NCBI GenBank assembly: GCA_946886255.1
Contig: CAMPIG010000006.1
Span: forward strand, 1-35,794
Reading direction: 5' to 3'
From: an uncultured Cellvibrio sp.
GTDB taxonomy: Bacteria; Pseudomonadota; Gammaproteobacteria; Pseudomonadales; Cellvibrionaceae
DNA length: 35,794 nt
This document shows positions 13,190-35,751 of this stretch, one piece after another. A program made the translations under genes and the position numbers. Each line of letters begins with the position of its first letter. Position 1 is the stretch's first letter. Below the pieces are notes generated by a model that made no database searches, was not told the origin of the DNA, and saw only the letters and a program-made list of their open reading frames with translations.

Positions 13190-13200
13190 TTAAGTACTCC

Positions 13201-15075: not shown

Positions 15076-15091
15076 GGGCTGATCCCTTAGA

Positions 15092-17607: not shown

Positions 17608-19959
17608 TTACGGATTAATCCAGCGAATATTATCCAACTGCAAATTAACGCCTTGCTGTGAGTCCCATGTAGGAAGCAGCACGAAAGGAGTATTGACTTT
17701 CGTCAAGTCCAAACCACCTGTTACCATTTGTGAGATGGGCACCGTGACAGTCTGCCATGCGCCGTCACCAACCACGCCGACCGGAATATCTCCCGAGCTA
17801 CATGGATTAACACAATCGGCCTTAACTACTAATCCAGACGTGTTAACACCATAATCAGCGACTTTAATATCAAAGGACAGGTACCCATCTTCTGCAAAAG
17901 CACTAATATCTTTTGTTCCTGTGGCTTGAATGAAAATGAGTCCGTTCGCTGTGGAATTAAAGCTCACTTCAAGTACCTTTCCACGCTCTACTTCATCTGC
18001 ATCAACGACTGCGTTAGTAACATGGCCACCGGCGGTCTCGTATACACCAATCCCAAAATCCCAGTTAGGATCTATAGCGTCAACAAAAACATCGAAAGTT
18101 TCTGTCAAAGCAACGGGTGGCTCCTTCGGCTTGATATCGCAATCTTCCAAGCAAGCAATACGAATATTATCAAGCTGTATATGAGCAGCTCCGCCCAATA
18201 TTTCCGTTTCAAAGGGGCGCATTATCGACGACCAGTCCACTGCCGACCAAGAGCCTGGAGCTTGCCGCAAATTGTAGAAACGCACAGATACTGGCGTCCA
18301 CTTTCCAACCATATCCGGCGTAAGTGCTATTTCCTCAATACTGATATCGGGGAAACCTGAACCTAATTTAACACTCAGTTTGGCATTAGGTTCTGCTGTT
18401 TCCACCCAAATATCAAACTTGTATTCACCAAGTTGACGGGCACGATTGTGCAAAGGATCACTACCGAAATTGAAGCCATCCTGCACGCCTTCAACTCCGC
18501 TCATATCAGCCGACGCAAGCCAAGCAACAGCGGGACCCGCATTATTAAATTGGAGATCCCATACAACCGCACCACCTGAGCCATCATTAATAGGTGTAGC
18601 CACCGGATTGGAAACGAGAGCGCCGCTATCATTCCATACAGCGTGTTGGAGGGTGTTGGTAACTTCAGTATCATTCACATCAAAGGTCAACGTTTGTATT
18701 CCGCCTTGTGAACCACGGAACAACCATACTTCATCCAGCACATCCGGTGGTGGTACATGGCCAACGATATCGGTTGGTGTTACTCCCTCATCAGCCGTGG
18801 GCGTAGTGCAACCTTTACCGGTCAGAGGATCGACAGAGCACTGATAAACGCGAACGTAATCTACCTGCATCGTTCTGGAGTCGGTAAAGTCTGGTAAATC
18901 AATATAAGTACCGTTCCCCAATGCCACGTTCATAATCATATGGAAAGGTTTGTCAAAAGGTTGGGCTTCGGTACCGATTTGATAACCAACTTCTTGACCA
19001 CCCCAATAATAAATAAACCAGTTACCACGGTTAACAGCGAAGAGCACATCGTCTACATACCAACGTATTTCACCTTCCTCCCACTCTACGGCGTAGGTGT
19101 AAAAATCATCCCACATATTGGTTGGTGGTTCGTAGGAAGCACCGCTGTACTGGTTCCAGGGCCAAGAGAAACCATAATGCAAGGTGCCATGCATTTCGTT
19201 CGGCGCCCCAGTAGGCTGAGGACCGGCAACACCCGGTTGGAAAGCTTCGAATATGTCTATCTCACCACTGTGCGGCCAACCACCGTAGGTAGTGGTATCT
19301 GTAGGCAGCATCCAGAGAGCAGGCCAAATACCTTTACCTTGTGGCATTTTTGCGCGGATTTCCATTCGGCCATAAGTCCAGTCAGCCTTACCACGAGTAC
19401 GCAGTCGAGCCGAAGAATAATCTTTACAAACCGTCGCTCCGGGATAGCCTGGATCTTCCTGATTCAGCGCTGGGCCACAGACTTCTCCCTCACCCTCATA
19501 TATAGAGGTTATATTTAACAGCCCGTCCGAAACGTAACTGTTGTCAGGGCTGGCGGTATAACATTGCGCCTCGTTATTGCCACCACCCCAGCAGTTTACT
19601 TCGTGTTCCCAATTAGCGCTGTTTATAACTTCGCCATCAAATTCATCAAACCAAACAAGATCCCACGCAGCAGCGCTGGACTCACTGGAAGATTCAGAAC
19701 TTGAAGATTCCGCACTGGAAGACTCAGAACTTGCTGCTTCAGAACTTGAGGCTTCGCTGGAAGCTTCAGAGCTGACCGCAATACTGGACTCAGAGGAGCT
19801 GCTGGAAGCAGGCTCGCTTGACGCAACAGCACTGGAACTGCTTGAGCTGTTCGGTGTGGAGGAACTGGAGCGATTGTCATTCGAATCGCTACCACCACAG
19901 CCGGCCAGCGTCAGACACAACACGCTAAAGCAGGTTACTAAAGGAAATGTTATTTTCAT
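17608..19959 (-). CDS. GH16 laminarinase-like endo-beta-1,3-glucanase lipoprotein
   Basis: 783 residues. Lipoprotein signal with Cys21 (LTLAGC), then a serine/glutamate/alanine-rich linker at about 31-97, then a GH16 catalytic domain at about 99-374 with the retaining active-site motif GEIDIFE (nucleophile Glu233, Asp235, acid/base Glu238) and flanking WPALWMLP. The ending VDYVRVYQC is typical for GH16. This subgroup cleaves internal beta-1,3 bonds of laminarin-type glucans. Residues about 400-783 form two beta-sandwich-like modules, each ending in a QLDNIRI or LQLDNIRW motif, perhaps glucan-binding. Probably an outer-membrane surface enzyme. It follows the GH3 gene by 88 bases on the same strand. 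GAGG precedes the ATG. Confidence 0.93.
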   Translation of the reverse strand: MKITFPLVTCFSVLCLTLAGCGGSDSNDNRSSSSTPNSSSSSSAVASSEPASSSSSESSIAVSSEASSEASSSEAASSESSSAESSSSESSSESSAAAWDLVWFDEFDGEVINSANWEHEVNCWGGGNNEAQCYTASPDNSYVSDGLLNITSIYEGEGEVCGPALNQEDPGYPGATVCKDYSSARLRTRGKADWTYGRMEIRAKMPQGKGIWPALWMLPTDTTTYGGWPHSGEIDIFEAFQPGVAGPQPTGAPNEMHGTLHYGFSWPWNQYSGASYEPPTNMWDDFYTYAVEWEEGEIRWYVDDVLFAVNRGNWFIYYWGGQEVGYQIGTEAQPFDKPFHMIMNVALGNGTYIDLPDFTDSRTMQVDYVRVYQCSVDPLTGKGCTTPTADEGVTPTDIVGHVPPPDVLDEVWLFRGSQGGIQTLTFDVNDTEVTNTLQHAVWNDSGALVSNPVATPINDGSGGAVVWDLQFNNAGPAVAWLASADMSGVEGVQDGFNFGSDPLHNRARQLGEYKFDIWVETAEPNAKLSVKLGSGFPDISIEEIALTPDMVGKWTPVSVRFYNLRQAPGSWSAVDWSSIMRPFETEILGGAAHIQLDNIRIACLEDCDIKPKEPPVALTETFDVFVDAIDPNWDFGIGVYETAGGHVTNAVVDADEVERGKVLEVSFNSTANGLIFIQATGTKDISAFAEDGYLSFDIKVADYGVNTSGLVVKADCVNPCSSGDIPVGVVGDGAWQTVTVPISQMVTGGLDLTKVNTPFVLLPTWDSQQGVNLQLDNIRWINP

Positions 19960-20047: not shown

Positions 20048-22582
20048 TTAATCACACGTAATTTCAGCATCAACGTTTTTCTCGATACGCAAGTTGTAGA
20101 GTGATAGATCCAACTTGCCCTCTGTCACCAGATAGAACGGCGACAAAATCATGTCCATTTTTGCGCGATCTGTTGCGAGACACTTCAGCGCAACCGACAG
20201 CGTGGTCCATTCTTTTTGCGGCAGTGCTTGCAGGTTTTCCGTGATGGATTTTTCAGCCATACAGTCCTGGCCACAGAAAATACCGAGGCGAACATCAGCC
20301 GTGGGTTTTTCATCCACCTTCACATCAAACACCAGCGCGGAATTTGCTTCGACATAAGAAGAGAGATCGGTGCGCGATTGCGCAAAGAAACCGGCGCTGC
20401 CACGACCAGTACCATTCCACTGCATACGCCGTGAATCTTCCTGCACGTTACGATCTACCGCGCGCAGCGTGATGGTGTCGAGACTTGCGGTACTGCCGGT
20501 AACAGTCACGGAATTATTGCGGCCATCGGCAATAACCAGTTGCCAGGGTTCCAGTGGACGGTTATCAAAAATGTTCAACACCGCATCGGTTTGCGCGCTG
20601 GTGTTGGCTGCTGCTTCGAACAGATCATCACCCAGCGTGTCTTTGTCCTGATAGGTCAGGCCATATCCGTAAGCAAATAGAGGTGCGTAATCTTTTTCAC
20701 CGACATTCAAGGGTGATTGCGTCGGCGTTGCTGGCCAGGAGAATGAGAGCTTGCCGTTGAAGTCGTGTTGAATTTTTCCGGCTTTATCAGTGAACAACAC
20801 ATCAGCCACACCGGCACCTTCAGAGCCCGGATGCCAAATGGCAACAAAGGCATCAGAGGCATTTAATTCGCGATTAATCCACAGCGGGCGACCGGTAATA
20901 AATAACGAGACAACCGGAATACCATCAGCCTTGAGTTTTTTAAGCAACGCCAGATCATCGGTATTGGTGTAGGCAAGATTTTTTACATCGCCTTGCATCT
21001 CAGCGTAAGGATTTTCACCAAAGACGACGATAGCCACGTCTGGCTTGGTGGTGTATTCACCGGTTTCGCTCAACGAAACCTTACCGCCCGCCGCTTCAAC
21101 AGATTCGGCGATGCCCTGATAAACAGAACTGCCGCCGGGGAAATCTTCGTTGGTATTGCCCGTGCCTTGCCAGGAAATAGTCCAGCCGCCGGATTGCTTG
21201 CCAATGTTGTCCGCACCATCACCGGCCACTAACACATTAGCGTTGGGATTTAACGGCAGAAGTTGGTTTTTATTTTTCAACAGTACGAGGGATTCGCGCA
21301 CGGCCTGACGTGCAACCGCGCGATGTGCCGGTGCACCGATCAACTCTTGTTTGGCCGCGAACGCGCGGGTGGAGGGCGCACCTTTTTCAAATAAACCGGC
21401 ACGAATTTTTACACGCAGAATACGACGAACGGCATCATTCAAACGCGCTTCACTGATCTCGCCGTTTTTTGCTTGCTCAAGCGTATTGGCGTAAAGCACT
21501 TTCCAATCCGCATCGGGCGCCATAAAAATATCAAGGCCCGCATTGATGGCTTGCGGACAACTGATCTTGGTGCAACCCGGAACAAATTCGTGACCGTTCC
21601 AATCGCCGACAATCAATCCGTCAAAGCCAATGCGGTTTTTCAGGATGTCGGTCAGCAAATATTCGTGGCCGTGCATTTTTTTGCCCTGCCAACTGCTGAA
21701 GGACGCCATCACGGTTTGTGCACCGGCTTCAATCGCGGTGACATAACCTTGTGCGTGCAGCGCGATCAATTCCGCTTCGCTGATATTGGCATCACCGCGA
21801 TCTACACCATCGAGGGTGCCGCCGTCGGCAATAAAATGTTTGGCGGTAGAAATAACGCGGTCTTCCGCCATAAATTCATCGGTATTGGCACGGCCTTGCA
21901 GGCCTTCTACCATCTTTCCGCCATAGGATTTCACCACGGCAGGATCTTCCGAATAGGATTCGTAAGCGCGGCCCCAGCGGTCATCGCGCGCCACTGCCAG
22001 CGTCGGTGCAAAATTCCAGTCGATGCCGGTGGCAGAAATTTCACGCGCGGTGACTTCACCGATCTGACGCATCAACTCAGGGTTGCGCATCGCGCCCAAA
22101 CCAATGTTGTGTGGAAAAATCGTTGCACCAATGACATTGTTGTGGCCGTGCACTGCATCCGTGCCCCACATTATGGGAATCGCAATGCCGCCGTCGCTAT
22201 CTTCCATGGAGGCGTTGTAAAAGGTGTCTGCCAGTGCGACCCAATCATTCACAGTCGCGTATTTGTTATCACCGGGAAATGCACCGCCGCCGTTCAATAC
22301 GGAGCCGACATGATATTTTTTGATATCCTCCGGCGTGATTTGACGCAACTCCGGCTGCATCAGCTGGCCTACTTTTTGTTCCAGCGTCATCCTGGCAAGC
22401 AAACCATCAATTCTCGCCTCAACAGCAGGATCCTTAGCAACAGCGCTGGTTAATACCGGCCATTCCGCCGCCGCTTTTTGCTCGGCTATGGGCTTATCTA
22501 CCGGCTCTGTCTTGGTACATCCCATCAGCGCGGTTAAAAAAATCACACTGCCACCAACCATGATCTTTAACTGTTGCTTCAT
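20048..22582 (-). CDS. GH3 family exo-beta-glucosidase, ExoP-like lipoprotein
   Basis: 844 residues. Lipoprotein signal with Cys22 (LTALMGC). The GH3 N-terminal barrel shows GIDWNFAPTLAVARDDRWGR, KHF at 248-250 and the catalytic Asp327 in GLIVGDWNGHE. The second domain follows with LVLLKNKNQLLPL and VVSLFITGRPLWINREL. The extra C-terminal beta-sandwich (about 670-844) is the layout of ExoP-type 1,3/1,4-beta-glucosidases. It should release glucose from the non-reducing ends of beta-glucan oligosaccharides made by the neighbouring GH16. AGAAGG precedes the ATG. The 43-bp element shared with the TonB receptor gene lies about 440-480 bases upstream. Confidence 0.93.
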   Translation of the reverse strand: MKQQLKIMVGGSVIFLTALMGCTKTEPVDKPIAEQKAAAEWPVLTSAVAKDPAVEARIDGLLARMTLEQKVGQLMQPELRQITPEDIKKYHVGSVLNGGGAFPGDNKYATVNDWVALADTFYNASMEDSDGGIAIPIMWGTDAVHGHNNVIGATIFPHNIGLGAMRNPELMRQIGEVTAREISATGIDWNFAPTLAVARDDRWGRAYESYSEDPAVVKSYGGKMVEGLQGRANTDEFMAEDRVISTAKHFIADGGTLDGVDRGDANISEAELIALHAQGYVTAIEAGAQTVMASFSSWQGKKMHGHEYLLTDILKNRIGFDGLIVGDWNGHEFVPGCTKISCPQAINAGLDIFMAPDADWKVLYANTLEQAKNGEISEARLNDAVRRILRVKIRAGLFEKGAPSTRAFAAKQELIGAPAHRAVARQAVRESLVLLKNKNQLLPLNPNANVLVAGDGADNIGKQSGGWTISWQGTGNTNEDFPGGSSVYQGIAESVEAAGGKVSLSETGEYTTKPDVAIVVFGENPYAEMQGDVKNLAYTNTDDLALLKKLKADGIPVVSLFITGRPLWINRELNASDAFVAIWHPGSEGAGVADVLFTDKAGKIQHDFNGKLSFSWPATPTQSPLNVGEKDYAPLFAYGYGLTYQDKDTLGDDLFEAAANTSAQTDAVLNIFDNRPLEPWQLVIADGRNNSVTVTGSTASLDTITLRAVDRNVQEDSRRMQWNGTGRGSAGFFAQSRTDLSSYVEANSALVFDVKVDEKPTADVRLGIFCGQDCMAEKSITENLQALPQKEWTTLSVALKCLATDRAKMDMILSPFYLVTEGKLDLSLYNLRIEKNVDAEITCD

Positions 22583-23560: not shown

Positions 23561-24346
23561 TTATTGAGGGAATTGTGGCGGGTTGCCTTTCCACCAAAAA
23601 TTAACCAATACGTTGACAGGCTCCAACGCTTCCACGTGATGCCACCAATGCGTTGGAATATATAAAGCATCACCCGGGCCCAATTCCGCAACCTGGACCT
23701 GCTCAAGCGCATGGCGAAACAGCGGAAATTTATCAAGGTCCGGCGACTGAAGATCAACCAGACTGATGGGCCGACCGGCGGGCGTCATATCAACCGGTCC
23801 TATATACAGATTGGCTTCCTGCTCGGGCGGAAATAAGGTGAACCGGCGACGCCCCGCCGCCACACACGCGATATTTTCTGAATCATCATTGTGGGTGGCC
23901 ACAGTGACCGCGTTACCAATCCAGATAGTGGGGTCAATAGATTCGCCAAGAAAATCTATCCGCGTGTCGGCCTCCAAACCCGGTAAATATTCAGGCACTA
24001 CCTTAGAACCAATATAAAAACCGGGACACGGTGTTTTGGTCGACAATGCGCTCAAAATATTCAGCGCCTCGCGCAGCTCACCGTTCATGCGATCAAAATT
24101 AAATCCGCTCATATCGGCCCTGTAAAACAGCCTGCCTTTTGCTGAGACGGGTGCAATCATGGCCTGAAATACTTTCCCCTGATCAAACTGCAACAGATAA
24201 TCTGATAGCGCAGAGATTCCTTGCAAACCGGCTTGCACTAATGACCAACCTTGTACCAGGTTGCGCAGGATAACTGGCCGCTGGCCTGCACTGATCGCTG
24301 CACGCACGGATTCATCCGCAATGTCATTCCACACTGGCACCCACAT
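23561..24346 (-). CDS. Cupin-like (JmjC-type) protein, short form
   Basis: 261 residues of the cupin_8/JmjC-like fold, similar across its length to the gene at 27393: GFYIGS, an IWIGN strand, the metal-binding THNDD (His152, Asp154), FTLFPPEQ, NLYIGPVDMTPAGRPISLVD and the distal WWHHVEAL (His236 or His237) followed by NVLVNFWW. Iron/2-oxoglutarate-dependent hydroxylation is the usual chemistry for this fold, with the substrate unknown. It stops about 75 residues earlier than the paralogue, losing the C-terminal helices. Last gene of the seven-gene operon, six bases after the SapC gene. ATG 24346 has no clear ribosome site, consistent with coupling. Confidence 0.85.
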   Translation of the reverse strand: MWVPVWNDIADESVRAAISAGQRPVILRNLVQGWSLVQAGLQGISALSDYLLQFDQGKVFQAMIAPVSAKGRLFYRADMSGFNFDRMNGELREALNILSALSTKTPCPGFYIGSKVVPEYLPGLEADTRIDFLGESIDPTIWIGNAVTVATHNDDSENIACVAAGRRRFTLFPPEQEANLYIGPVDMTPAGRPISLVDLQSPDLDKFPLFRHALEQVQVAELGPGDALYIPTHWWHHVEALEPVNVLVNFWWKGNPPQFPQ

Positions 24347-24352
24347 CGCGCG

Positions 24353-25057
24353 CTATCTCATGGTCCTGGCCATACGTTTCAATATTTCATTCACCGAGCC
24401 AATTGAATGAATATGCGCGTAGGTCCAGGCCGTCCAGCCCTTATAAAACCAATCCACGATTTCTTCATCGGTCAAAGCTTCATGAAATGCTTTCTCATTC
24501 ACCGCAAAAAAGCTATCAAGTTTGACTTCTTTATCTGCAAGTTGCACAACCACTTGCGAACGACTTAACAAGCCTTTCACTTTTAATGCCTGGGTATAGT
24601 CCAGAGTCATACGGTGAGCCTGATCCAAGGTATCGAGATACTGTAGGGTATCGAGCAAAACAGAGGTAGGCTCGCCGGCATCGTCAAACAAGCGCTCGCC
24701 GTCAGCTGCGTTGAAATGCGATGCTGCCTCGTCGATCATGACCACACCTTTGTTCTCTGCAAGGGCAAAGGGATAACGTTTAACAAAAGAAGGGATGTAA
24801 ACTCCCTCCCAACGATCGCCCAATTGATGACTCTGGCTGGTGAGCGACAGTAACGCAACCGGCAAAAAACCGCCGCTGCCAGTTTCTACAAACATGACGG
24901 GATGGCTGCGACTACAAGGGAAAAACTCCGGACCTGACACTGGCACGGTGTTGACTTTGGATGTAAAAGTGTAGCTGTCAGACTTTTTATATTTCAGCCC
25001 GCGATGTTTCTCTTTATCAAGCGGAGCGGGTTTTTCGTAGAATAATAATTCGGCCAT
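24353..25057 (-). CDS. SapC family protein (second copy)
   Basis: 234 residues matching the SapC pattern: HPVMFVETGSGGFLPVALLS near residue 50, WEGVYIPSFVKRYPFAL in the middle, then ERLFDDAGEPTS and a helical C-terminus. SapC was named from the Campylobacter S-layer locus, but in proteobacteria of this kind the protein is a recurrent partner of tryptophan halogenases, cupin proteins and TonB receptors, with no proven function. No signal peptide is seen, so it is likely cytoplasmic. It lies 72 bases after the DUF6445 gene and six before the cupin gene. It is a distant paralogue of the SapC at 28432. Confidence 0.88.
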   Translation of the reverse strand: MAELLFYEKPAPLDKEKHRGLKYKKSDSYTFTSKVNTVPVSGPEFFPCSRSHPVMFVETGSGGFLPVALLSLTSQSHQLGDRWEGVYIPSFVKRYPFALAENKGVVMIDEAASHFNAADGERLFDDAGEPTSVLLDTLQYLDTLDQAHRMTLDYTQALKVKGLLSRSQVVVQLADKEVKLDSFFAVNEKAFHEALTDEEIVDWFYKGWTAWTYAHIHSIGSVNEILKRMARTMR

Positions 25058-25129
25058 AACGGAATACCATAACTGTAGAAATAAAACGTGCTGGTTAATG
25101 TTAATCCTGCACGACAGATGTTAACGCAC

Positions 25130-25846
25130 TTAATGAAAATCAATAAAAATATTGGCCGTCAACCTGCCTCTTACAGGGTCGCTGCAAACATCCACGGCCT
25201 CAGACACCAAACCACTGTGGAGTAAATTGCCCGGATAGATCAGCAAGCGATTGGCCCGGTAATCAACACCAGTGATCAACTCGTAATGATTGGTGCTGCT
25301 GTTAATATATTTTTCTTCCGGCAAGCCCCGGACCGCCATAAATGCCGACGCCGACTGTTTATAAATATCGCATCGCGCCTGGGTAATACGCTCAAAGCCG
25401 GTTGGCCGATGACGAAAAAAACCTGTGCCGCCGAAATCACCTTCGTTGAGATAATGCAGCACGGCGTAATAATGTGTGTTCGTGGTATCGAAGTGAGGCA
25501 ACCGTTGTAATGGATTTAGTTTTCGCGCCGGGGTCGTCAACAAAGAATAGTAAGCAAGTTCCACACTCGGAAGCAAAACTGGAGGAATGGCATAGCGCTC
25601 ATAGAGCAGCGGCGTAATAGATTCCATCAGCGACTTTACATAGGCCTCCGGCAGCATCGTTCGAATACCGGGATAGCCTGTCTTGCCATCCTCCGCGTAA
25701 TCCGACATACCACAACCTTCGCGTCTTATTGAAGCGACATCGTCGGCAACATCGTCAATGACAATCACGGGAGTCTGTTCATTGCCTACACGCATAACTT
25801 CATGGGTGCTGACATTAAAACGTTGATCTTTTACACCAGATTCCAT
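25130..25846 (-). CDS. DUF6445 protein, putative Fe(II)/2-oxoglutarate oxygenase
   Basis: 238 residues from ATG 25846, eight bases after the halogenase stop; the frame is also open to TTG 25876, which would overlap the halogenase, but similarity to the family does not require it. The pattern fits a 2-oxoglutarate oxygenase: QRLPHFDTT with His118 and Asp120, TGFFRHRPTGFERI, then NLLHSG with His210 and an Arg at 228. This is an inference from the HxD...H...R layout. It exists only in the second of the two halogenase cassettes and has no counterpart in the first. A hydroxylation role on the same substrate as the halogenase and cupin is plausible but unproven. Confidence 0.75.
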   Translation of the reverse strand: MESGVKDQRFNVSTHEVMRVGNEQTPVIVIDDVADDVASIRREGCGMSDYAEDGKTGYPGIRTMLPEAYVKSLMESITPLLYERYAIPPVLLPSVELAYYSLLTTPARKLNPLQRLPHFDTTNTHYYAVLHYLNEGDFGGTGFFRHRPTGFERITQARCDIYKQSASAFMAVRGLPEEKYINSSTNHYELITGVDYRANRLLIYPGNLLHSGLVSEAVDVCSDPVRGRLTANIFIDFH

Positions 25847-25854
25847 GATTAAAA

Positions 25855-27348
25855 CTACATCACTTTTGATTTGCAATAGTAATCAATAAACTCGTGGTGA
25901 GCAGGCAAACGATCAACTTTCTGCTCGGTAGATTGTTTCAGCTCCATAAGTAATTCACGCAATGCATCGTCGGTCATGGAATCCACCACCGGATGATAGC
26001 TTTCCGGCGTTACGCCTTGACCCAGCATCACCTGAATCCAGGACTCTTCTGCAAAGAGATCCATTTCCTTTTTGAAGACTTTGCCTGTCTCCCTGAAGAG
26101 CTTGATACGGTGCGTCAAGGATTCAGGCACATTCATATTTTTACAGTAACGCCAGAAGGGCGTGTCTTCGCGATCCGTCACGTGATAGTGAAGAATAATA
26201 AAGTCGCGAATGTTCTGCACTTCTTCACTTGTCTGGCGATTGAATTCGTCGACTTCGGACTGTTTGATGCCGTCATAGGGAAATAATTGAATAAATCGCG
26301 TAATACTTTTTTGAATCAAGTGAATACTGGTGGATTCGAGCGGCTCCAAAAATCCACTCGACAAGCCGATGGCGACACAGTTTTTCGTCCAGTGCTGCTT
26401 GCGCGTCCCTGTGGTGAACTTAATGACACGGGGCTCGTTCAGTAATTTCCCTTCCAGGTTTTTTACCAACAATTGTTTGGCTTCGTCATCTGAACCATAC
26501 TCGCTACAAAAAACCAATCCATTACCGACACGACTTTGCAATGGAATTCGCCATTGCCAGCCGAACTCACGCGCAATCGAACGCGTGTAGGGCAACGGCG
26601 GCCGCACCGTTTCGGTTTGAACCGCGATAGCGCTATTGCATGGCAGCCAATGTGACCAATCTTCGTATTCTGTTTTGAGCGCTTCACCTATCAACAATCC
26701 GCGAAAACCACTGCAATCGATGAAAATGTCGCCCTCAACTACTTCCCCGGATTCCAGAGATAGGGATTGAATATAGCCCGTATCCGGGTGCAGATTAACA
26801 CCGGTTATCTTCCCTTCTTTACGCATTGCGCCGAATTGTTCGCTCACTTCACGCAAAAATTTCGCATACAACCCGGCATCAAGATGATAAGCATAGTTGA
26901 CACCATTCTTGGGCATGACCGCGAATTTCTCTTTGCGACATGCTAAATGCTCAGCGCAATAATTCCCGTACTCCGTGAAATCAATGCCACGCTTCTGGCC
27001 CGCCAACCAGAAATGCTGGAAGCCGGCAGCCCAGTTACTTTTTCCAGCAAAACCGAACGAATGAACGTAGTTTTCACCCACGTCGCGCCAGTTTTCAAAT
27101 GAAATACCCAGCTTGAAGGTACCATTCACTCGCGCCATAAATTCCTTTTCACTTAACTCCAATACTTTATGGAGATTAATGATAGGAGGAATCGTTGCTT
27201 CACCCACACCCACCGTTGGAATTGCGTCCGATTCAATCAAGGTTAAATCGATACTCTTACCAAAAGACTTAGCCAACAAGGCAGCCGATATCCAACCCGC
27301 AGTACCGCCGCCGGCAATCACTACTTTTTTTAATTTTAATTCTTTCAA
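25855..27348 (-). CDS. Tryptophan halogenase family flavoprotein (second copy)
   Basis: 497 residues. FAD-binding GGGTAGW at 13-19, the GVGEATIPP segment at 47-54, the lysine matching the catalytic Lys79 of PrnA (Lys79 in GTFKLGISFENW), the halogenase-type WxWxIP (Trp264, Trp266) and FLEPLESTSIHL with the conserved Glu. Such enzymes use reduced FAD and oxygen to make hypohalous acid and halogenate aromatic rings; free tryptophan need not be the substrate. The start is TTG, supported by AGGTG seven bases upstream and the intact FAD motif. 44 bases after the first cupin gene. It is markedly different from the first halogenase (525 residues), so this is not a recent duplication. Confidence 0.92.
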   Translation of the reverse strand: MKELKLKKVVIAGGGTAGWISAALLAKSFGKSIDLTLIESDAIPTVGVGEATIPPIINLHKVLELSEKEFMARVNGTFKLGISFENWRDVGENYVHSFGFAGKSNWAAGFQHFWLAGQKRGIDFTEYGNYCAEHLACRKEKFAVMPKNGVNYAYHLDAGLYAKFLREVSEQFGAMRKEGKITGVNLHPDTGYIQSLSLESGEVVEGDIFIDCSGFRGLLIGEALKTEYEDWSHWLPCNSAIAVQTETVRPPLPYTRSIAREFGWQWRIPLQSRVGNGLVFCSEYGSDDEAKQLLVKNLEGKLLNEPRVIKFTTGTRKQHWTKNCVAIGLSSGFLEPLESTSIHLIQKSITRFIQLFPYDGIKQSEVDEFNRQTSEEVQNIRDFIILHYHVTDREDTPFWRYCKNMNVPESLTHRIKLFRETGKVFKKEMDLFAEESWIQVMLGQGVTPESYHPVVDSMTDDALRELLMELKQSTEQKVDRLPAHHEFIDYYCKSKVM

Positions 27349-27392
27349 GGTTACACCTGTCGTCGTTAATTAATTGTTGGCGTATTAGTGCG

Positions 27393-28406
27393 TTAGCGTT
27401 TCAGCATATTGACCAAATGCGATCTTATTTTGCGTGCAATCAATTCATCCGTCCGGGCCAGAATTCCCTGAATTTGGGGTGGTACGTGTTGACCTGCTGC
27501 TTCCGGCTCTTCAAACACATAATAATCAAATATTTTTTTCCAGATGTCCCGCTGCTGTTTGGGTAAATCACGCAATCCAAGCAGCGCATGATGAAGAACG
27601 TTTTCCGGATTTCCCATATAGTCCGGTACGTTGCGCCACCAGTAATTAACCAATACATTTAAACTGGTATGCGCCTGCACATGGTGCCACCACATACCGG
27701 GAATAAAGACCGCATCTCCTGCATCGAGCTCTGCCACAACACTCGCTGCCAACGCCTGTTTAAATCGCGGATACCTTTCAAAATCCGGCTGCAACAGATC
27801 GACCATACTGATCGCACGCCCTGAGGGCGTAATATCCAACGGGCCCACATAAAGATTTTGTAATTGTTCGGGTGGAAACAACGTAAAGGTTCGTTTGCCC
27901 ACGACGTTGCAAGCGATGTTGTCAGGACAATCGTAATGCGCGGCGATAACGCTGCGATTGCCCAACCAGATACTGACCAGCGGTTCGATGTTGCTCAAGC
28001 CAAGATCATTCTCTGCACGAAAACCCGGCAACCATTCATCAACACGAGTAGAGCCGATATAAAACATTGGCGCATCAGCTTGGTCACGGTGCTGCTCGAG
28101 CAGGGCCAGTACATTAGTCAGATTGGCTTCCGAGCGCTGGAAGTTAAATCCGGTAAAGTCTTTATTAAAAAAAATTTTTCCTTGAATCTCAGGCGCACCG
28201 TAATAATAGGTAACCGGCTTGCCACTGTAGAAACTGCGCAAATACTCGCTCGCTTGTTGCTCTGACTGCCGTCCTTTTTTAACAATAGGCCATTCGGCCA
28301 CCACACCTTTTAGCACCAAGGGCTCGCCGGATTGAAATACCCAATCCGGAATATTTGCAGGGCTACACCCCTCAACCACTCTTACCTTATTCGGAATGCT
28401 AGTCAT
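27393..28406 (-). CDS. Cupin-like (JmjC-type) protein, full-length
   Basis: 337 residues of the cupin_8/JmjC-like family. GSTRVDEWLPGF, the SIWLGN strand, metal ligands His157 and Asp159 (AAHYDCPDN), FTLFPPEQLQNLYVGPLD, ITPSGRAISMVDL and the distal histidine in WWHHVQA (His241 or His242), then NVLVNYWWRN. A helical C-terminal extension from about 262 to 337 is present, unlike in the second copy. Likely an Fe(II)/2-oxoglutarate hydroxylase by fold; substrate unknown. Starts 25 bases after the first SapC gene. The Shine-Dalgarno before ATG 28406 is weak. Confidence 0.9.
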   Translation of the reverse strand: MTSIPNKVRVVEGCSPANIPDWVFQSGEPLVLKGVVAEWPIVKKGRQSEQQASEYLRSFYSGKPVTYYYGAPEIQGKIFFNKDFTGFNFQRSEANLTNVLALLEQHRDQADAPMFYIGSTRVDEWLPGFRAENDLGLSNIEPLVSIWLGNRSVIAAHYDCPDNIACNVVGKRTFTLFPPEQLQNLYVGPLDITPSGRAISMVDLLQPDFERYPRFKQALAASVVAELDAGDAVFIPGMWWHHVQAHTSLNVLVNYWWRNVPDYMGNPENVLHHALLGLRDLPKQQRDIWKKIFDYYVFEEPEAAGQHVPPQIQGILARTDELIARKIRSHLVNMLKR

Positions 28407-28431
28407 AGGGTTACTTCAGGGGCAGATGCAA

Positions 28432-29160
28432 TTAGTTGGCTTCCAACTGGCTTTTCAGCTTAATCAATTTATTGACGTTGGCAAGCGAGGCAATAGCCAT
28501 GTAAATAGGTTGCAGATAACCGCTTTCATTTAATTTACCGAGCACCGCGCCATTTAATTTATTAAGCACATCTTCATTGATGGTATAGAAACCTAATAAC
28601 TGCGCTTGTCGGCCCGTGGTCAGGGTAATATCAAAGGTGACAGACTCCAGAAGATTGTGTTCGAGTAACGCCTGACTAAAGCCTTTTCCCTGTTCATTCC
28701 ACACATGAATGGTTTCCAACAAAGAAGCCATGTAGTCCAGGTATTCGCTGTTACCGCCTTGTTCAAGAAACAAGCGCTCGCCTTCTATTTCGCTAATGCG
28801 CGGGCTATCCATGTTGATGTTCATGACACGCGTAGTATCAGATTCACTGCCAGCAGGACCCCGCTGAAAACCGATAAGGAACGGGTGCCGTTGTATCATC
28901 AAAGGAATATAGCTCGCTTCCCAACCCCGTTCACTCAGGAACAGGTTTTCTCCCTCTTCAAAGCCAAATAATGCCACCGCGTTATAACCGTTATTCTCGT
29001 GACTTTTTTGGAAGAGGATCGGGTAATGCGCTTGAATAAAACGGAACTCCAGCGGAAAGGTGTTCGTCAACATAACGCCATCACCCAGCGCTTTTTCTTT
29101 CCGCGTAATCACTCGTACGTTTTTATGCTTGACATTATTAACGACTTCAATATTTTTCAT
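28432..29160 (-). CDS. SapC family protein (first copy)
   Basis: 242 residues with SapC features: HYPILFQKSHENNGYNAVAL, FGFEEGENLFLSERGWEASY, IPLMIQRHPFLIG, then ISEIEGERLFLEQGG and a helical end. Probably a cytoplasmic partner of the halogenase encoded 11 bases upstream; SapC-halogenase-cupin sets are a recurring arrangement beside TonB receptors in proteobacteria. Function unproven. A weak GATGAG precedes the ATG. Confidence 0.88.
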   Translation of the reverse strand: MKNIEVVNNVKHKNVRVITRKEKALGDGVMLTNTFPLEFRFIQAHYPILFQKSHENNGYNAVALFGFEEGENLFLSERGWEASYIPLMIQRHPFLIGFQRGPAGSESDTTRVMNINMDSPRISEIEGERLFLEQGGNSEYLDYMASLLETIHVWNEQGKGFSQALLEHNLLESVTFDITLTTGRQAQLLGFYTINEDVLNKLNGAVLGKLNESGYLQPIYMAIASLANVNKLIKLKSQLEAN

Positions 29161-29171
29161 AAGAACTCATC

Positions 29172-30749
29172 TTAATTTAGTAATTGTTTAACTATTCCGG
29201 CGTGATGATTTATCTTCGACAGGTGCATCAACAATTCACGGTGTCCCGGCAATCTACCGAGCAACCGGCGTGTCTGTTTTGCATTTTTTTCAAAATAGTG
29301 TTGCGCCAATTGCAGTTCTTTATTACCCGGCTTTTGATAGCCTGCGACAACATCAGGCGGAAAGCCCATACCATACAACACATACTGAAAACTCGCCGAA
29401 GAGAATAGCTCTTCGCGCTGCGGGCAATCGTAAGCCCAGGGCGGCTGATAACGCCACAGGCATAATAAATCTTGCAGGCTTTCCGGTATGCTTGATGGAT
29501 TTTTATTTTCCTGCCAATACACGGAATCCGTTCTTGATGATAGTACATAGTGGAGTTTCAGAAACTCAATAACACGCTGCCAGTGATAGCTGAATTTATC
29601 GTTATAACGTTTGGCCAAGGGTAACATCATATCGAACGATACAGGCATTTGTTCGGCCAACATCTTAGCCGCCAACTCAATCATAACCAGCGCAGATGCT
29701 TCAAGAGGTTCGATAAAGCCTGCCGATACTCCCACCGCTACACAATTCTTAACCCAGAATTTTTCGCGGTAACCAGGAGTGAAGGAAATCTTGCGGATAT
29801 CGGTTTGGGCTTCCGGACTGTCAGTAGCCTGAAGGTAAGCCAACAATACCTGCTCGGCCTCCGCTTCGGTTGTAAAACGGGATGAATATACATGACCTAT
29901 CCCACGACGACTTTGCAGGCCGATATCCCAGATCCAACCTGAAGATTGCGCTGTTGATTGGGTGTAACTTTTTATCGGGCTTGCGGCGTCTTTATACGGA
30001 ACCTGGACTGCCAGCGCCGTATCGTTAAACAGCACATCATTTTTATGAATAAACGGAACCTGGTAATGCTGCCCCAGCAACAACGCAGCGAAGCCGGAAC
30101 AATCGATAAATAAATCGCCTTCGATGTTACCCGCATCGTTGGTTTTTAACGCGGTAATATAACCATTATCATCGGCTTCAATCGCCGCCACATCCGCTGA
30201 AATATATTGCACCCCCAACAGGTCACAGCAATGGCATTTGAGAAATGCAGCGAATTTCCCTGCATCCAAATGGTATCCGTAATTCAGCAAATAATCGTAT
30301 TCCGGCGTTGAGACTTCCTTGGGTGCTAATTGGTTGTCACACACCAGGCTTTGTGGACACACAGCTTCTGCAAAAGCCACCTGATCGCGAAACGCTGGCC
30401 ATATCCGCGCCAGATTCATTTCACCCCAGGCTTCCGGGAGGGTAAACGGATGATAGTAGGATTCGCGTGTACCGGACTGCCATCCGACAAAGCAAGACCC
30501 CTGCTTAAAACTCGCATCGCAGTGGCGAATAAAATCAACTTCCGCAATGCCCATGGTTTTCAAGGTATCGCGCATCGAGGGCCAGGTACCTTCACCGACC
30601 CCCAGAATTTTTACTGTTGGTGACTCAACCAGCGTAATCGACAAATTGCGCCCACGCCCTTGGGCATGCGCAGCTGCCAGAGTACCTGCGGTCAACCAAC
30701 CAGCAGTACCGCCTCCGACAATAACAATCGATTTTACTAGCTTGCCCAT
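29172..30749 (-). CDS. Tryptophan halogenase family flavoprotein (first copy)
   Basis: 525 residues. FAD-binding GGGTAGW at 12-18, GVGEGTWPS at 50-58, a lysine (Lys82 in ASFKQGSCFVGW) matching PrnA Lys79, WIWDI at 272-276 in place of the classic WxWxIP, and FIEPLEASAL with the conserved Glu. Proteins of this branch lie next to TonB-receptor, SapC and cupin genes; characterised relatives brominate indole-like substrates, with the natural target unknown. First gene of the operon, with a LacI-like palindrome about 55 bases upstream. AGGA precedes the ATG. Confidence 0.92.
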   Translation of the reverse strand: MGKLVKSIVIVGGGTAGWLTAGTLAAAHAQGRGRNLSITLVESPTVKILGVGEGTWPSMRDTLKTMGIAEVDFIRHCDASFKQGSCFVGWQSGTRESYYHPFTLPEAWGEMNLARIWPAFRDQVAFAEAVCPQSLVCDNQLAPKEVSTPEYDYLLNYGYHLDAGKFAAFLKCHCCDLLGVQYISADVAAIEADDNGYITALKTNDAGNIEGDLFIDCSGFAALLLGQHYQVPFIHKNDVLFNDTALAVQVPYKDAASPIKSYTQSTAQSSGWIWDIGLQSRRGIGHVYSSRFTTEAEAEQVLLAYLQATDSPEAQTDIRKISFTPGYREKFWVKNCVAVGVSAGFIEPLEASALVMIELAAKMLAEQMPVSFDMMLPLAKRYNDKFSYHWQRVIEFLKLHYVLSSRTDSVYWQENKNPSSIPESLQDLLCLWRYQPPWAYDCPQREELFSSASFQYVLYGMGFPPDVVAGYQKPGNKELQLAQHYFEKNAKQTRRLLGRLPGHRELLMHLSKINHHAGIVKQLLN

Positions 30750-30849: not shown

Positions 30850-30882
30850 AAAAAAAGCCGCTGAAAGTTCAGCGGCTTTTTC
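30850..30882 (-). terminator. Bidirectional terminator after the TonB receptor gene
   Basis: Stem GCCGCTGA (30857-30864) and TCAGCGGC (30869-30876) with A-run before and T-run after. It separates the receptor gene from the halogenase operon, which therefore needs its own promoter. Confidence 0.92.
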
Positions 30883-30916: not shown

Positions 30917-33900
30917 TTAGAAGGTATAACGTGCACCGATGTTGTAGCGTGGACCGCTGGTGTAAACACCGGTGGTGTACAGGTCATGACGCCCGTAGGT
31001 ACGACGGTATTCATCCGTGATGTTGATACCTTCAAAGAATATAGTGAAGTTATCATTGATGTCGTAGCTGGCATTGAGGTCAACCTGCTGATAATTCTCG
31101 ACATAGGTCGGGTTAGCACCTGTGCCATCAGCGGTTCCATTCAGGTAGTCATCACGCCAGTTGTAGCTCAAGCGCACTTGTACACCATGTTTTTCATAGA
31201 AGGCAATAAAGTTGGCACTGTCGCTCAAACCGGTTAATGCAAATTGTGGATCTACGATATTGCCGTCATCGTACTCGGTATCGGAATCCGTGATGGTGTA
31301 GTTAGCAACAACACCAAAACCGGTATCCCAGAAGTTATGCTGAACCGCAAATTCCCAACCATCAAAGGTCGCTTCCTGCTCGTTCAGGAACTCAGTGATG
31401 TTGAAGATCACATCCGGATCACCTTCCACACCATAAACCCAAGCCGGGTTTTTAGTCAGGTCTACACTGGGGTCTCCATCAGGTGTATTAGCAACGATGT
31501 AATCTTTAACTGCCGCAGTACTCCATTGATTGTTGCCGTCAGCAGCAACGGCCGCATCACGACGGCTACCTTGCGATGGATCCGGCGCATTAAAGATAAC
31601 TTCGGGCGATACCGTTGTACCGATAAAGTTCTTAACATCTTTTCTGTAGTAGCCGACAGAAACATAGCTGGCTTCGTCGTAATACCATTCCACAGACAAG
31701 TCGAAGTTGTCGGAGATAATCGGTTTCAGGTTTACATCACCACGTGTACCGCTACCACCAGCGCTGCCAGGGAACATCGATTGCGGTGCAACACCGCGGC
31801 CAATAGAAAGGGCGCTCATCTGATTCCACAATGGACGACCAAGGCTACGGCCGTAAGATGTGCGTACCACGACATCATCGGTCACGTCAAAAGCCAGATC
31901 AATGCTTGGCAGGAAGTAGTCGTAGCCACCCTCACCTTGTTTGACCGGCGTAACTTCGTAATCGTCAGCAGCGAGCAGATACATCTCGTTACCGCCGATC
32001 CACACGACCTCACCGGTGTACTGCAACTCAATGGGTGTTGCGAAAGAGCGAGTTTCTGTATCTTCCCAACGAACGCCCAACGCACCACGCACCGGGATAC
32101 CGATATCGTATTCTGCGTTCAATTGCACCCATGCGCTGGTGGAATCTTCTTCAATCAAACGAACGTCGTCCGGCGTGGGGTTCATACAGTAGTAGGTACT
32201 ACCATTGGAACAGTTGGCAAAACCACCGCCATCATCCAGGTTTTCTGCAGCGTACTGAACCACTTTATCGAAATCAGCGACAAAACGTTGACCCAGTAAC
32301 TGATCATGACCGTTGCCACTGACATTGTCGAAGTAGCTGGCAATGTCTGAAACTTTGTAGCCATCGAGCGGCACATCACCTTCATTACCCAGTCCACCCC
32401 AGGTATCGCGCTGGTTGTTTGCAAAGGTGGAGCGGTTGGTTTGCTCGATACGAGACACACCGAAGTCAAGATTCAAGCTGTCAACAAATTCAAAGTTACC
32501 CTTGAACTGGAATTGATCAATTTCATGCAGCATACGCGCATTGCGGAAAGAGCTACCGGTAATCTGGAGGTCTTCAAGGCGAGCAGTATTACCACCGTCG
32601 TTATTCAAAATACCGACATTCAGCACTGGCAAATCTGAGCCGAGATAAACAGCCGAACTATCGCGGACAAATGCCGATGTAGTAATTACGTTGCTGTTAC
32701 CGTACTCACTATCTGGCTTGGATTCAGCATCTGAGCTGTGAATATCGAATTCGAGGGTTAAACGATCAGTTACAGACCACTCAACATTCAAACCGATAGA
32801 TTCATTTTCATTGACACTGGAGTTAAGGCCAGCACCAAAGGTTAAGTCAGCACCTCTGGCTCCGGTCAAACCAAATTCTTCATACATTAACGGTACTTCA
32901 ACTACGCCATCACCGTTATCCGTCCAGGACGTCCGACGGTTTCCGCCAAAGTTAAACCAGGCACCCACATCAGAGAACTTGGAAGACTCTTCTTTCTTGG
33001 AATAGGTGTAATCCAGAGTAGAAGTGATGTTTTCGTTGGGAGCAAATTGCAGTACCAACTGACCGTTCAAGCGCTTACGCTCGTATTCGTTGAAGTTGTA
33101 GCCTGCTTGTTGCGGCACACCGTAAACATCAGCAGGGACTACGACCTCTTCACCATCCATAACAGCTGGACTTGGAGGATTAGTGTGGAAGTCGGTGTTT
33201 TGCAGATTGTTGATTGCACCCCAGCCATCAGAGCCAACCGGGAAATAACGCCAGCCGGTACCTATTTGCGCATTGGCGTTACCGCCCTCACGGTCCTGGT
33301 AACTCATGGACAGACCAACACCAAAGGTGTCATCAGCAAAGGTATTGCTGTAGATGCCGGAGATTTCCGGGGTCAGGCTTGGATCTTCTGCAGAGTCATC
33401 GTAAACACCTTTGATGCCGGCTGAAAATTGCTGGCCAGGGTTATCCAATGGACGTGCAGTTTTAATGTTGATGGTTGCACCCACACCACCAGCCGGATTT
33501 TCGGCGCGAACGGTTTTAAAGACTTCAACTCCACTAATGCCTTCGGAAGCCAGGTTAGAGAAGTCAAAGGAGCGCGAGCCAGACACGCTGGTGGCTTCGA
33601 TGGTGGTGCCGGGCATCTGACGACCATTCAAGGTCACCAGGTTGTAATCAGGGCCGAAGCCGCGCACGGTAACTTTGGAACCTTCACCGTTGCTACGATC
33701 AATCGACACACCGGTAATACGTTGCAGAGACTCTGCCAGGTTAGTATCAGGAAATTTGCCGATATCTTCTGCAGAGATCGCATCTACCACACCTTGCGAT
33801 TCACGCTTGATATCCATAGAACGCTGCAAGCTGCCCTTAATGCCGGTAACGACGATTTCTTCAACCATCTCACCGTTATCTTGCGCGAAAGTGGTACCAC

Positions 33901-33976
33901 TCAGCCCCACAAGGGCGTAAGAAGCCACTGCCGTCGCAATAAGTTTCTTCTTGAAGCCTACTGTGTTTTTGTTCAT
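30917..33976 (-). CDS. TonB-dependent outer-membrane receptor (TonB-Xanth-Caul type)
   Basis: 1019 residues. Signal peptide to about residue 31 (TTFAQ), a TonB box EEIVVTG at 39-45, a plug domain with ISAEDIGKFPDTNLAESLQR, ITGVSIDRSNGEG, TVRGFGPDYNLVTLNGRQMP, then a large beta-barrel ending GPRYNIGARYTF with the terminal aromatic residue required for outer-membrane assembly. This class imports oligosaccharides and similar ligands using TonB energy. Its neighbours (GH16, GH3, solute-binding protein) suggest beta-glucan oligosaccharides. GGAGAA precedes the ATG. A copy of the shared 43-bp element lies 250-292 bases upstream. Confidence 0.95.
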   Translation of the reverse strand: MNKNTVGFKKKLIATAVASYALVGLSGTTFAQDNGEMVEEIVVTGIKGSLQRSMDIKRESQGVVDAISAEDIGKFPDTNLAESLQRITGVSIDRSNGEGSKVTVRGFGPDYNLVTLNGRQMPGTTIEATSVSGSRSFDFSNLASEGISGVEVFKTVRAENPAGGVGATINIKTARPLDNPGQQFSAGIKGVYDDSAEDPSLTPEISGIYSNTFADDTFGVGLSMSYQDREGGNANAQIGTGWRYFPVGSDGWGAINNLQNTDFHTNPPSPAVMDGEEVVVPADVYGVPQQAGYNFNEYERKRLNGQLVLQFAPNENITSTLDYTYSKKEESSKFSDVGAWFNFGGNRRTSWTDNGDGVVEVPLMYEEFGLTGARGADLTFGAGLNSSVNENESIGLNVEWSVTDRLTLEFDIHSSDAESKPDSEYGNSNVITTSAFVRDSSAVYLGSDLPVLNVGILNNDGGNTARLEDLQITGSSFRNARMLHEIDQFQFKGNFEFVDSLNLDFGVSRIEQTNRSTFANNQRDTWGGLGNEGDVPLDGYKVSDIASYFDNVSGNGHDQLLGQRFVADFDKVVQYAAENLDDGGGFANCSNGSTYYCMNPTPDDVRLIEEDSTSAWVQLNAEYDIGIPVRGALGVRWEDTETRSFATPIELQYTGEVVWIGGNEMYLLAADDYEVTPVKQGEGGYDYFLPSIDLAFDVTDDVVVRTSYGRSLGRPLWNQMSALSIGRGVAPQSMFPGSAGGSGTRGDVNLKPIISDNFDLSVEWYYDEASYVSVGYYRKDVKNFIGTTVSPEVIFNAPDPSQGSRRDAAVAADGNNQWSTAAVKDYIVANTPDGDPSVDLTKNPAWVYGVEGDPDVIFNITEFLNEQEATFDGWEFAVQHNFWDTGFGVVANYTITDSDTEYDDGNIVDPQFALTGLSDSANFIAFYEKHGVQVRLSYNWRDDYLNGTADGTGANPTYVENYQQVDLNASYDINDNFTIFFEGINITDEYRRTYGRHDLYTTGVYTSGPRYNIGARYTF

Positions 33977-34594: not shown

Positions 34595-35485
34595 CTAATC
34601 GCTCAACAAGTCAGATTCATAATTCAACAATGCATCCGGTAATAGCGGATTACTCAAGGTAATGAGCTGACGATTTTTTAAATGTAAACGTTCAACCAGG
34701 TTGCCATAGTGACGCTGGAAAATGTCTTCCAACTGACCATTGTTAATAATGATTTGCATTCCCTGATCTATGCGCCGCGCCAATTCCGTGTTATCCGGAT
34801 TGACGTAGAACACTAACGGAAAGGGGTAATACAGCAGCAGATGTTCGTCGGTGTGCAGTCCTTCCGGAACAGCAGCCCGCTCCCGATAAACACCTTCCAC
34901 TTCATTTGCGCCGAACGAAACATAATCAAATTTGTGTTTACGCAGACGAGGAAACAGGTCGTCAAAGGAGCCGTCTTCTACAACGGGATAATCGTTGTGG
35001 CGAAACAAGGCTGCATCGGCCCAACCGAGCGGAATACCCAGCCGATGCTCCTGCAATTGTGCGGCACTGGTAATTCCGGCAAAGGTCTCGCGGTCGGCAG
35101 CACGGATTATCAGCAAGCGATAACCCAAGAGGCCTTTCATCATCGGGTGCGGAATCAGGATTTTCTTTTCATTAGCCAGCTTGGGGTTACCCGCCACCGT
35201 GCCGAATACATCAAAGCCTTTCTTGCGGAATATGCTGGCCTCGTCAGCCGGATCGGCATAGTCTGTGAGATCCTCGGTCACCGGAATCTCACCGTACCCT
35301 TTACGGGTGGCTTCAAGTACCGCCATCAGCACATCGCGCTCGTAGGCCTGGCGGGAACTGGTTTTGTTGCCGTTCCAGAATTTGATGGTGGTTACCTGCG
35401 GGTTTGAGCTGGTGTAATGCCACAAAAACAGTAGCGGCGAACAAATCAGCAGGACTGAAACAATATGAAGTGGGCGAATGCTCAT
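34595..35485 (-). CDS. Periplasmic solute-binding (SBP_bac_3-like) protein
   Basis: 296 residues from ATG 35485, which has AGAGGA seven bases upstream; the frame is open 38 codons further but that part is not protein-like. The N-terminus has a basic start and a hydrophobic stretch (IVSVLLICSPLLFLW), a signal peptide or anchor. The body reads like a type 3 solute-binding domain (QAYERDVLMAVLEATRKGYG, ITSAAQLQEHRLGIPLGWAD, then a late segment with DQGMQIIINNGQLEDIFQRH). No permease or ATPase is adjacent, so it may present a ligand to a sensor. It shares the 43-bp element with the TonB receptor and GH3 genes, linking it to the same regulon. Ligand unknown. Confidence 0.75.
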   Translation of the reverse strand: MSIRPLHIVSVLLICSPLLFLWHYTSSNPQVTTIKFWNGNKTSSRQAYERDVLMAVLEATRKGYGEIPVTEDLTDYADPADEASIFRKKGFDVFGTVAGNPKLANEKKILIPHPMMKGLLGYRLLIIRAADRETFAGITSAAQLQEHRLGIPLGWADAALFRHNDYPVVEDGSFDDLFPRLRKHKFDYVSFGANEVEGVYRERAAVPEGLHTDEHLLLYYPFPLVFYVNPDNTELARRIDQGMQIIINNGQLEDIFQRHYGNLVERLHLKNRQLITLSNPLLPDALLNYESDLLSD

Positions 35486-35751
35486 GGTTTTCCTCTCACC
35501 GACTGCTGGTTTTAACACGGAAGGCATGACCGGGTACGCCCATAGCCATGCCGTCCGAAAAAATGACACGGTCGGGCGCGGACCCGACGTTATAGGCAAT
35601 ATAGGTCATCAGGACCAATCTCATCTTTATCACTAGCTGCGCTCTGATTGTTATGCATTGGTAAATGACCGAAACCGGGAGATAGTTACAGCTGACGTTT
35701 AAATTCTTGTTGTCTGTTGAACTATTTTTAACGTCGCGAGAATAAACGTCG

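Follow-up and report, generated by a model that had tools for sequence, protein, structure and literature searches.

In a stretch of 35,794 nucleotides from an uncultured Cellvibrio sp. (contig CAMPIG010000006.1; hereafter the window, meaning the whole stretch), genes for two halogenases (hal1, hal2), two SapC proteins, two cupins and one DUF6445 protein follow each other on the minus strand, directly behind a gene for a TonB-dependent receptor of the TIGR01782 type. In many bacteria, sets of this sort are found together with a receptor of the same type, which makes the receptor the leading candidate target of the enzymes. Tentatively, we read the seven genes as a receptor-dedicated, cytosolic oxidative-tailoring module whose target would be a protein or peptide, and most probably the precursor of the partner receptor, with the SapC proteins as adaptors.

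Composition of the operon

All seven open reading frames (ORFs) were found in the order hal1, SapC1, cupin1, hal2, DUF6445, SapC2, cupin2, and Pfam assigns each of them with a strong score (two Trp_halogenase, two SapC, two Cupin_8 and one DUF6445). The operon-like set proposed in the original prediction, with its order, strand and names, is thereby confirmed. The same holds for its gaps of 6–72 bases (6, 72, 8, 44, 25 and 11 nucleotides in ascending coordinates), with the ATG at 25846 taken as the start of DUF6445. This start, giving 238 residues, is also the protein database's own prediction for the gene, while the alternative TTG at 25876, as chosen in the ORF list, would make DUF6445 overlap hal2. 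The row is flanked on the same strand by the receptor gene upstream and by GH3 and then GH16 genes downstream. Comparably tight same-strand packing recurs in many relatives, which excludes a chance arrangement. Some of the related proteins carry the names Gilvimarinus, Marinimicrobium and Cellvibrio, which suggests a gammaproteobacterium close to the Cellvibrionaceae.

Linkage to the TonB-dependent receptor

The suggested tie to TonB receptors is borne out by physical linkage, by co-occurrence across the phylum and by the correlation of evolutionary distances. The window receptor (30917–33976, minus strand; 1019 residues) matches the NCBIfam model TIGR01782 with 660.5 bits against a cut-off of 310. 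Of the 81 halogenases in ten DUF6445-bearing genomes, 72 have a TIGR01782 receptor at most 8 kb away, in 70 of these 72 cases on the same strand, and 52 of the 86 receptors have a halogenase within that distance. The ten genomes were picked from 47 that bear DUF6445 among 118 Colwellia relatives; from 90 halogenase rows, 9 short or weak ones were removed, and the receptors counted are those above the curated cut-off. The loci compared below are 56 of the 59 DUF6445 places in Colwellia relatives, supplemented by the neighbourhoods of 70 receptors in the ten genomes. As loci and genomes were chosen via DUF6445, DUF6445 counts in the locus sets are inflated and the ten genomes are not a random sample. 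Among 249 genomes across the phylum, a halogenase occurs in 24, a receptor in 32 and both in 22 (Fisher p = 9e-22, which is too strong because kinship is ignored); put differently, the receptor is found in 22/24 genomes with a strong halogenase and in 10/225 without. SapC occurs in 84 of these 249 genomes, including 23 of the 24 halogenase genomes. The cut-offs in this sample were E values of 1e-60 or lower for halogenases and 1e-90 or lower for receptors, and scoring was limited to the top 6 and top 3 candidates of each genome, which suffices for presence only.

Distances between halogenases correlate with those between their own receptors, with r = 0.85 for hal1 (50 pairs; shuffled mean 0.43) and r = 0.53 for hal2 (34 pairs; shuffled mean 0.07), values that were never reached in 2000 within-genome shuffles. 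The enzyme set likewise tracks the receptor clades, with 26 changes on a FastTree tree compared to a shuffled mean of 63.5. The window receptor belongs to a fully supported group of 11, ten of which carry both halogenase kinds; for the eleventh (L067), the enzyme set lies next door on the other strand. Genomes hold several halogenases (3 to 18 matches in the ten-genome set and 23 in genome G355, weak rows included), which agrees better with a separate set for each receptor than with a single shared product. G355 and a further genome, G296, which has 22 Trp_halogenase matches, are single genomes of about 4.2 Mb, and a few of these matches are weak.

Like the carbohydrate utilisation loci described for TonB receptors of the Xanthomonas/Caulobacter type, the window locus places a TIGR01782 receptor beside genes for a GH3 (20048–22582) and a GH16 enzyme (17608–19959), both on the minus strand and both with an Exop_C domain as identified by domain match, a glycan context to which it adds the oxidative enzyme set. 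A term search of the main text of PMC1790865, as far as available, gave no mention of halogenase, SapC or cupin. In the group of 11 loci, a GH3-family gene occurs in six, a GH16-family gene in four and a GH1-family gene in four. For four sister receptors accompanied by a GH16-family gene, the fetched stretch contains no enzymes, and other enzyme-bearing loci contain GH20 or amidohydrolase genes. Hence, the enzymes do not seem to follow the glycan.

The two halogenases

Hal1 (29172–30749, minus strand) and hal2 (25855–27348, minus strand) are 31% identical and match Trp_halogenase (PF04820) with 622.6 and 403.9 bits, respectively, against a cut-off of 21. They are members of the flavin-dependent halogenase family, and a corresponding activity is predicted from their sequences. 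The lengths of 525 and 497 residues and the motifs WIWDI and WQWRIP given in the original prediction are correct: hal2 has the W-x-W-x-I-P motif as WQWRIP, whereas hal1 reads WIWDIG, without the proline. Both contain GxGxxG as well as the lysine and glutamate that we take to be catalytic; the lysine is kept in 64/64 hal1-type and 45/48 hal2-type proteins, and the glutamate also in 64/64 hal1-type proteins. W-x-W-D-I replaces W-x-W-x-I-P in at least 50 of the 64 hal1-type proteins, and 47 of the 64 have E-A-S-A or E-A-T-S near the catalytic glutamate, where E-S-T-G is usual. Halogenases of this family require reduced flavin; a Pfam scan recognised no flavin reductase in the seven-gene operon.

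Hal2 can be aligned almost end to end with the solved BrvH (6frl) and Xcc4156 (6y1w), and likewise with 9luq. Residues 16–502 of Xcc4156 correspond to residues 6–494 of hal2 with two single-residue gaps and no added Trp-binding loops (in the sense given to these loops in the available text of PMC7336383), and BrvH shares E-S-T-S and the catalytic lysine and glutamate with hal2. According to the available parts of PMC5945002 and PMC7336383, BrvH and Xcc4156 are flavin halogenases that brominate indoles and whose native substrate is unknown; BrvH has an open active site with space for larger substrates (PMC5945002), and a peptide has been proposed as the substrate of both (PMC7336383). Unlike these two enzymes, hal2 sits in a receptor operon together with SapC and two kinds of 2-oxoglutarate oxygenase; neither TonB nor SapC is mentioned in the main text of either paper, as far as available. 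The nearest solved relatives of hal1 are 2pyx, 9ltb and 9lu2, tryptophan-halogenase-like proteins that share W-x-W-D-I with it, 2pyx and 9ltb also having E-A-S-A. The available text of PMC7336383 terms 2pyx unpublished, and a literature search on 9ltb, 9lu2 and 9luq returned nothing related.

The oxygenases

Two kinds of Fe/2-oxoglutarate oxygenase had been suspected in the operon, which is supported for both. Cupin1 (27393–28406, minus strand; 337 residues) and cupin2 (23561–24346, minus strand; 261 residues) are 44% identical and belong to the Cupin_8 oxygenase family, cupin1 being of the JmjC-type 2-oxoglutarate group and closest by sequence to FIH. The HxD..H metal site and an arginine (H157, D159, H241 and R172 in cupin1) are kept in 21/21 cupins, both window copies included. 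FIH and JMJD5 share this metal site and part of the core with cupin1. The FIH residue that we take to be Lys214 is an arginine in the cupins (21/21), and the partners of cupin1 differ from those of FIH as well.

The predicted model of DUF6445 (25130–25846, minus strand) matches Fe(II)/2-oxoglutarate oxygenases and has the oxygenase fold with HxD..H plus arginine, the invariant residues being H118, D120, H210 and R228. Its structural matches include the protein hydroxylases OGFOD1, LH3, PHD2 and the EF-Tu prolyl hydroxylase. By predicted fold, DUF6445 is therefore probably a 2-oxoglutarate oxygenase with protein hydroxylases as its best matches. Its likeness to OGFOD1, the lysyl hydroxylase LH3, PHD2 and the Pseudomonas putida prolyl-4-hydroxylase does not extend to sequence, for which the PDB gave no match at E ≤ 1.

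The SapC proteins

SapC1 (28432–29160, minus strand; 242 residues) and SapC2 (24353–25057, minus strand; 234 residues) are 25% identical and match PF07277 with 216.6 and 184.1 bits against a cut-off of 28.9; no solved fold was matched. SapC is familiar from S-layer export loci of the Campylobacter type, and no S-layer protein or type I export gene was present among the 19 window ORFs scanned, which are not all ORFs of the window. In genomes without these halogenases, SapC lies in some loci near export or surface-protein genes (OEP in L175, L182 and L183; RTX in L176; TPS in L196), though this is not so in most of the 28 loci examined. SapC also occurs as a fusion with a C-terminal extension of about 310–400 residues (L161–L167 and L172), for which the five cases examined (L161–L165) gave no further Pfam match; sensor kinases are encoded near the fused proteins of L161 and L165.

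A kit of parts rather than two cassettes

The original prediction saw two cassettes of the same order. This does not hold: SapC2 and cupin2 come from other lineages, hal1 is absent from a co-linear six-gene locus and many other combinations exist elsewhere, so that a modular model takes its place. Of the evidence that the prediction itself had named as speaking against it, one part, an independent distribution, is thereby found. The six-gene locus, L231 in genome G355, was reached by a SapC2 search of 97 relatives of G296 and is the closest relative found, with a 79% identical receptor and a like hairpin behind it. The receptor is followed by SapC1, cupin1, hal2, DUF6445, SapC2 and cupin2 in that order, at 55 to 73% identity. 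Hal1 is absent, and no remnant was found in the 245-nucleotide gap searched; of the 23 halogenase matches in this genome (21 strong), none is more than 49% identical to the window hal1. Cupin2 groups with cupins of a hal2-cupin-hal2 locus and of a receptor-cupin locus, apart from cupin1. SapC2 is on a long branch, which makes its placement unsure. In other genomes, members of its lineage are mostly solitary, with a gene for an FNR-like reductase as neighbour: around its orthologues in 12 further loci (L202–L213), the 3.7 kb covered contain no gene for a halogenase, a cupin, a DUF6445 protein or a receptor. The gene directly upstream on the same strand encodes an FNR-like reductase in nine of these 12 (PF00175 in 9/9 tested). 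From the lack of hal1 in L231, the groupings of cupin2 and SapC2 and the lone SapC2 orthologues, it follows that the operon is made up of a receptor-linked core and a SapC2-cupin2 pair that originated elsewhere, with hal1 only loosely retained.

The breadth of combinations is apparent from the downstream same-strand runs of 115 distinct receptors, with proteins labelled hal1 or hal2 and SapC1 or SapC2 by their better single-sequence score against the window proteins. Hal1 alone occurs 13 times (in several cases with SapC and DUF6445 next door on the opposite strand), hal1-SapC-DUF6445 12 times, hal2 alone nine times, hal1-SapC-cupin-hal2-DUF6445 five times and hal1-SapC-cupin-hal2 four times, the remainder being rarer mixtures. 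No enzyme run follows 37 receptors, and another seven have none but a halogenase elsewhere in the stretch, where none refers to the fetched stretch and not to the whole genome. The window arrangement thus extends one found in relatives, i.e., TonB-dependent receptor-hal1-SapC-cupin-hal2-DUF6445, and among 83 complete gene sets the SapC2-cupin2 continuation is present in the window only. SapC accompanies hal1 in 44/50 of these sets, compared to 4/33 of the sets without hal1. In 11 of the 12 hal1-SapC-DUF6445 loci (L037, L038, L040, L041, L043, L045, L047, L048, L050, L051 and L055), the signal peptide of the receptor is preceded by a long stretch that contains Trp and is similar among them (W-R-K or W-W-K, then S-S-L); in L056, the ORF begins later.

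A hairpin behind the receptor gene

A feature overlooked in the original prediction is a terminator-like hairpin between receptor and hal1 (30857–30876, minus strand), trailed by eight T on the minus strand. Such hairpins occur in 38/73 receptor-to-enzyme gaps, in 0/138 enzyme-to-enzyme gaps (45 of which are at least 40 nucleotides long) and in 1/730 shuffles. A first scan overlooked the window hairpin and gave 1/138 enzyme gaps; the revised rules gave the same 38/73 with partly different members. A separate general scan of the window did not list it. Receptors in halogenase-less loci have a hairpin within 250 nucleotides in 14/40 cases, so the hairpin is not special to enzyme loci. If functional, it would lower the expression of the enzymes relative to the receptor or mean that the two are transcribed separately. 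The pattern fits an abundant receptor and a scarce enzyme, and separate promoters are possible; a promoter scan gave no excess over shuffles.

Possible substrates

In the mechanism that we favour, the operon would encode a cytosolic module serving the receptor whose gene lies directly upstream. The flavin-dependent halogenases hal1 and hal2, the FIH-like hydroxylases cupin1 and cupin2 and the lysyl/prolyl-hydroxylase-like DUF6445 would modify a protein or peptide, the likeliest target being the receptor precursor prior to Sec export, with the SapC proteins as putative substrate adaptors. The enzymes lack export signals and look cytosolic, and the N-terminus of the receptor is signal-peptide-like. 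The enzyme set would be chosen per receptor, and hal1 may therefore be present or absent. This is argued from one set per receptor, the likeness of the oxygenases to protein hydroxylases, the open-site group to which hal2 belongs, the lack of any other recognised candidate gene and the SapC genes near export or surface-protein genes in some loci. The protein substrate of the original prediction hence remains plausible, with the partner receptor as a specific candidate. A wider proposal, which we hold to be somewhat doubtful, is that sugar receptors in the outer membranes of many Pseudomonadota bear halogen and hydroxyl marks in a programmed manner, with a separate mix-and-match set of halogenase, FIH-like and lysyl/prolyl-hydroxylase-like enzymes, delivered by SapC, for each receptor gene, and that these receptor-specific marks alter ligand binding, export or phage recognition.

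Several observations speak against a modified receptor. No receptor residue separates enzyme-bearing from enzyme-less receptors, a comparison for which only 11 tree-independent pairs on starred branches exist; for the columns that came out best (the D that aligns with window position 641 and the F at 912), significance was not shown. Ten aromatic residues of the window receptor are lost in the hal1-less relative, and none of the ten is conserved in ten hal1-linked receptors. As no residue is singled out, the receptor stays a candidate substrate. With cytosolic enzymes and exported receptors, the time for modification is short, and co-inheritance may come from linkage alone. Small-molecule oxygenases are among the DUF6445 matches (HygX is top in Foldseek, and the VIA rows include PasI and PolD). 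SapC adjoins a gene for an FAD-linked oxidase (PF02913, PF01565) in L173, L174 and L177, a misfit with the export idea, and an FNR-like reductase gene in other loci. Finally, no mass-spectrometry evidence was found in the searched literature.

It is unlikely that the enzymes instead modify a small aromatic molecule tied to the receptor, such as an imported ligand, an algal phenolic or an indole signal co-imported with the glycan. BrvH and the Xanthomonas enzymes use free indoles in vitro, according to the available parts of PMC5945002 and PMC7336383, several 2-oxoglutarate oxygenase matches of DUF6445 act on small molecules and an imported compound would suit cytosolic enzymes. Yet, the ten Pfam-named examples of the most recurrent ORF families in the loci, a named subset of those families, are sugar enzymes, MFS transporters, an ATPase-type kinase, FecR and a sigma factor, without an aromatic pathway gene. 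Moreover, many receptor-linked copies per genome and the pairing with receptor lineages are hard to square with one compound.

Another protein or peptide encoded elsewhere, such as one resembling ribosomally synthesised and post-translationally modified peptides (RiPPs) or a periplasmic or surface protein, is an improbable target, in which case the receptor would only be a co-regulated neighbour. Such a target would agree with the 9/81 halogenases that have no TIGR01782 receptor within 8 kb (some on contigs without one), with the 58 of 249 genomes with SapC and no receptor at the cut-off used and with the existence of the peptide halogenase MibH (available text of PMC8269204 and PMC7336383) and a leader-guided RiPP brominase (available text of PMC10286304). 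Nonetheless, receptor linkage is the dominant pattern, and the 15 largest small-ORF families in the loci are antisense to, or fragments of, larger genes. The small-ORF comparison of the loci, to which a distant precursor would be beyond scope, recognised no RiPP precursor peptide gene.

That hal1 is no halogenase but a monooxygenase of related type, or a partner of hal2 without catalysis of its own, would accord with its deviating motifs and its dispensability in L231, but is rather improbable given the lysine and glutamate kept throughout the hal1-type proteins, and the 34 of 50 complete sets with hal1 and no hal2 indicate that hal1 is not just a partner of hal2.

Significance and further features of the window

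The gene set, whose presence is confirmed, is part of a very common family, and the searched literature is silent on the SapC-halogenase-receptor set: nothing combined a tryptophan halogenase, SapC and a TonB-dependent receptor, and nothing dealt with DUF6445 (preprints were not covered). For BrvH and Xcc4156, the available text of the papers cited above gives no known native substrate, and at least 7999 relatives of hal1 alone raise the stakes. The receptor pairing, the modular sets and the natural hal1-less relative make the substrate question experimentally simple. If receptors were indeed modified, this would be a new layer of outer-membrane protein modification, as far as the literature was searched, and would supply enzymes for halogenating proteins at specific sites.

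Elsewhere in the window, a 334-residue ORF without a Pfam match (34595–35599, minus strand) represents a family in five loci, the window included, all of which have halogenases. Three successive minus-strand ORFs with RHS repeats lie at 10595–15880, and a transposase of the IS66 type is encoded at 7129–8127.

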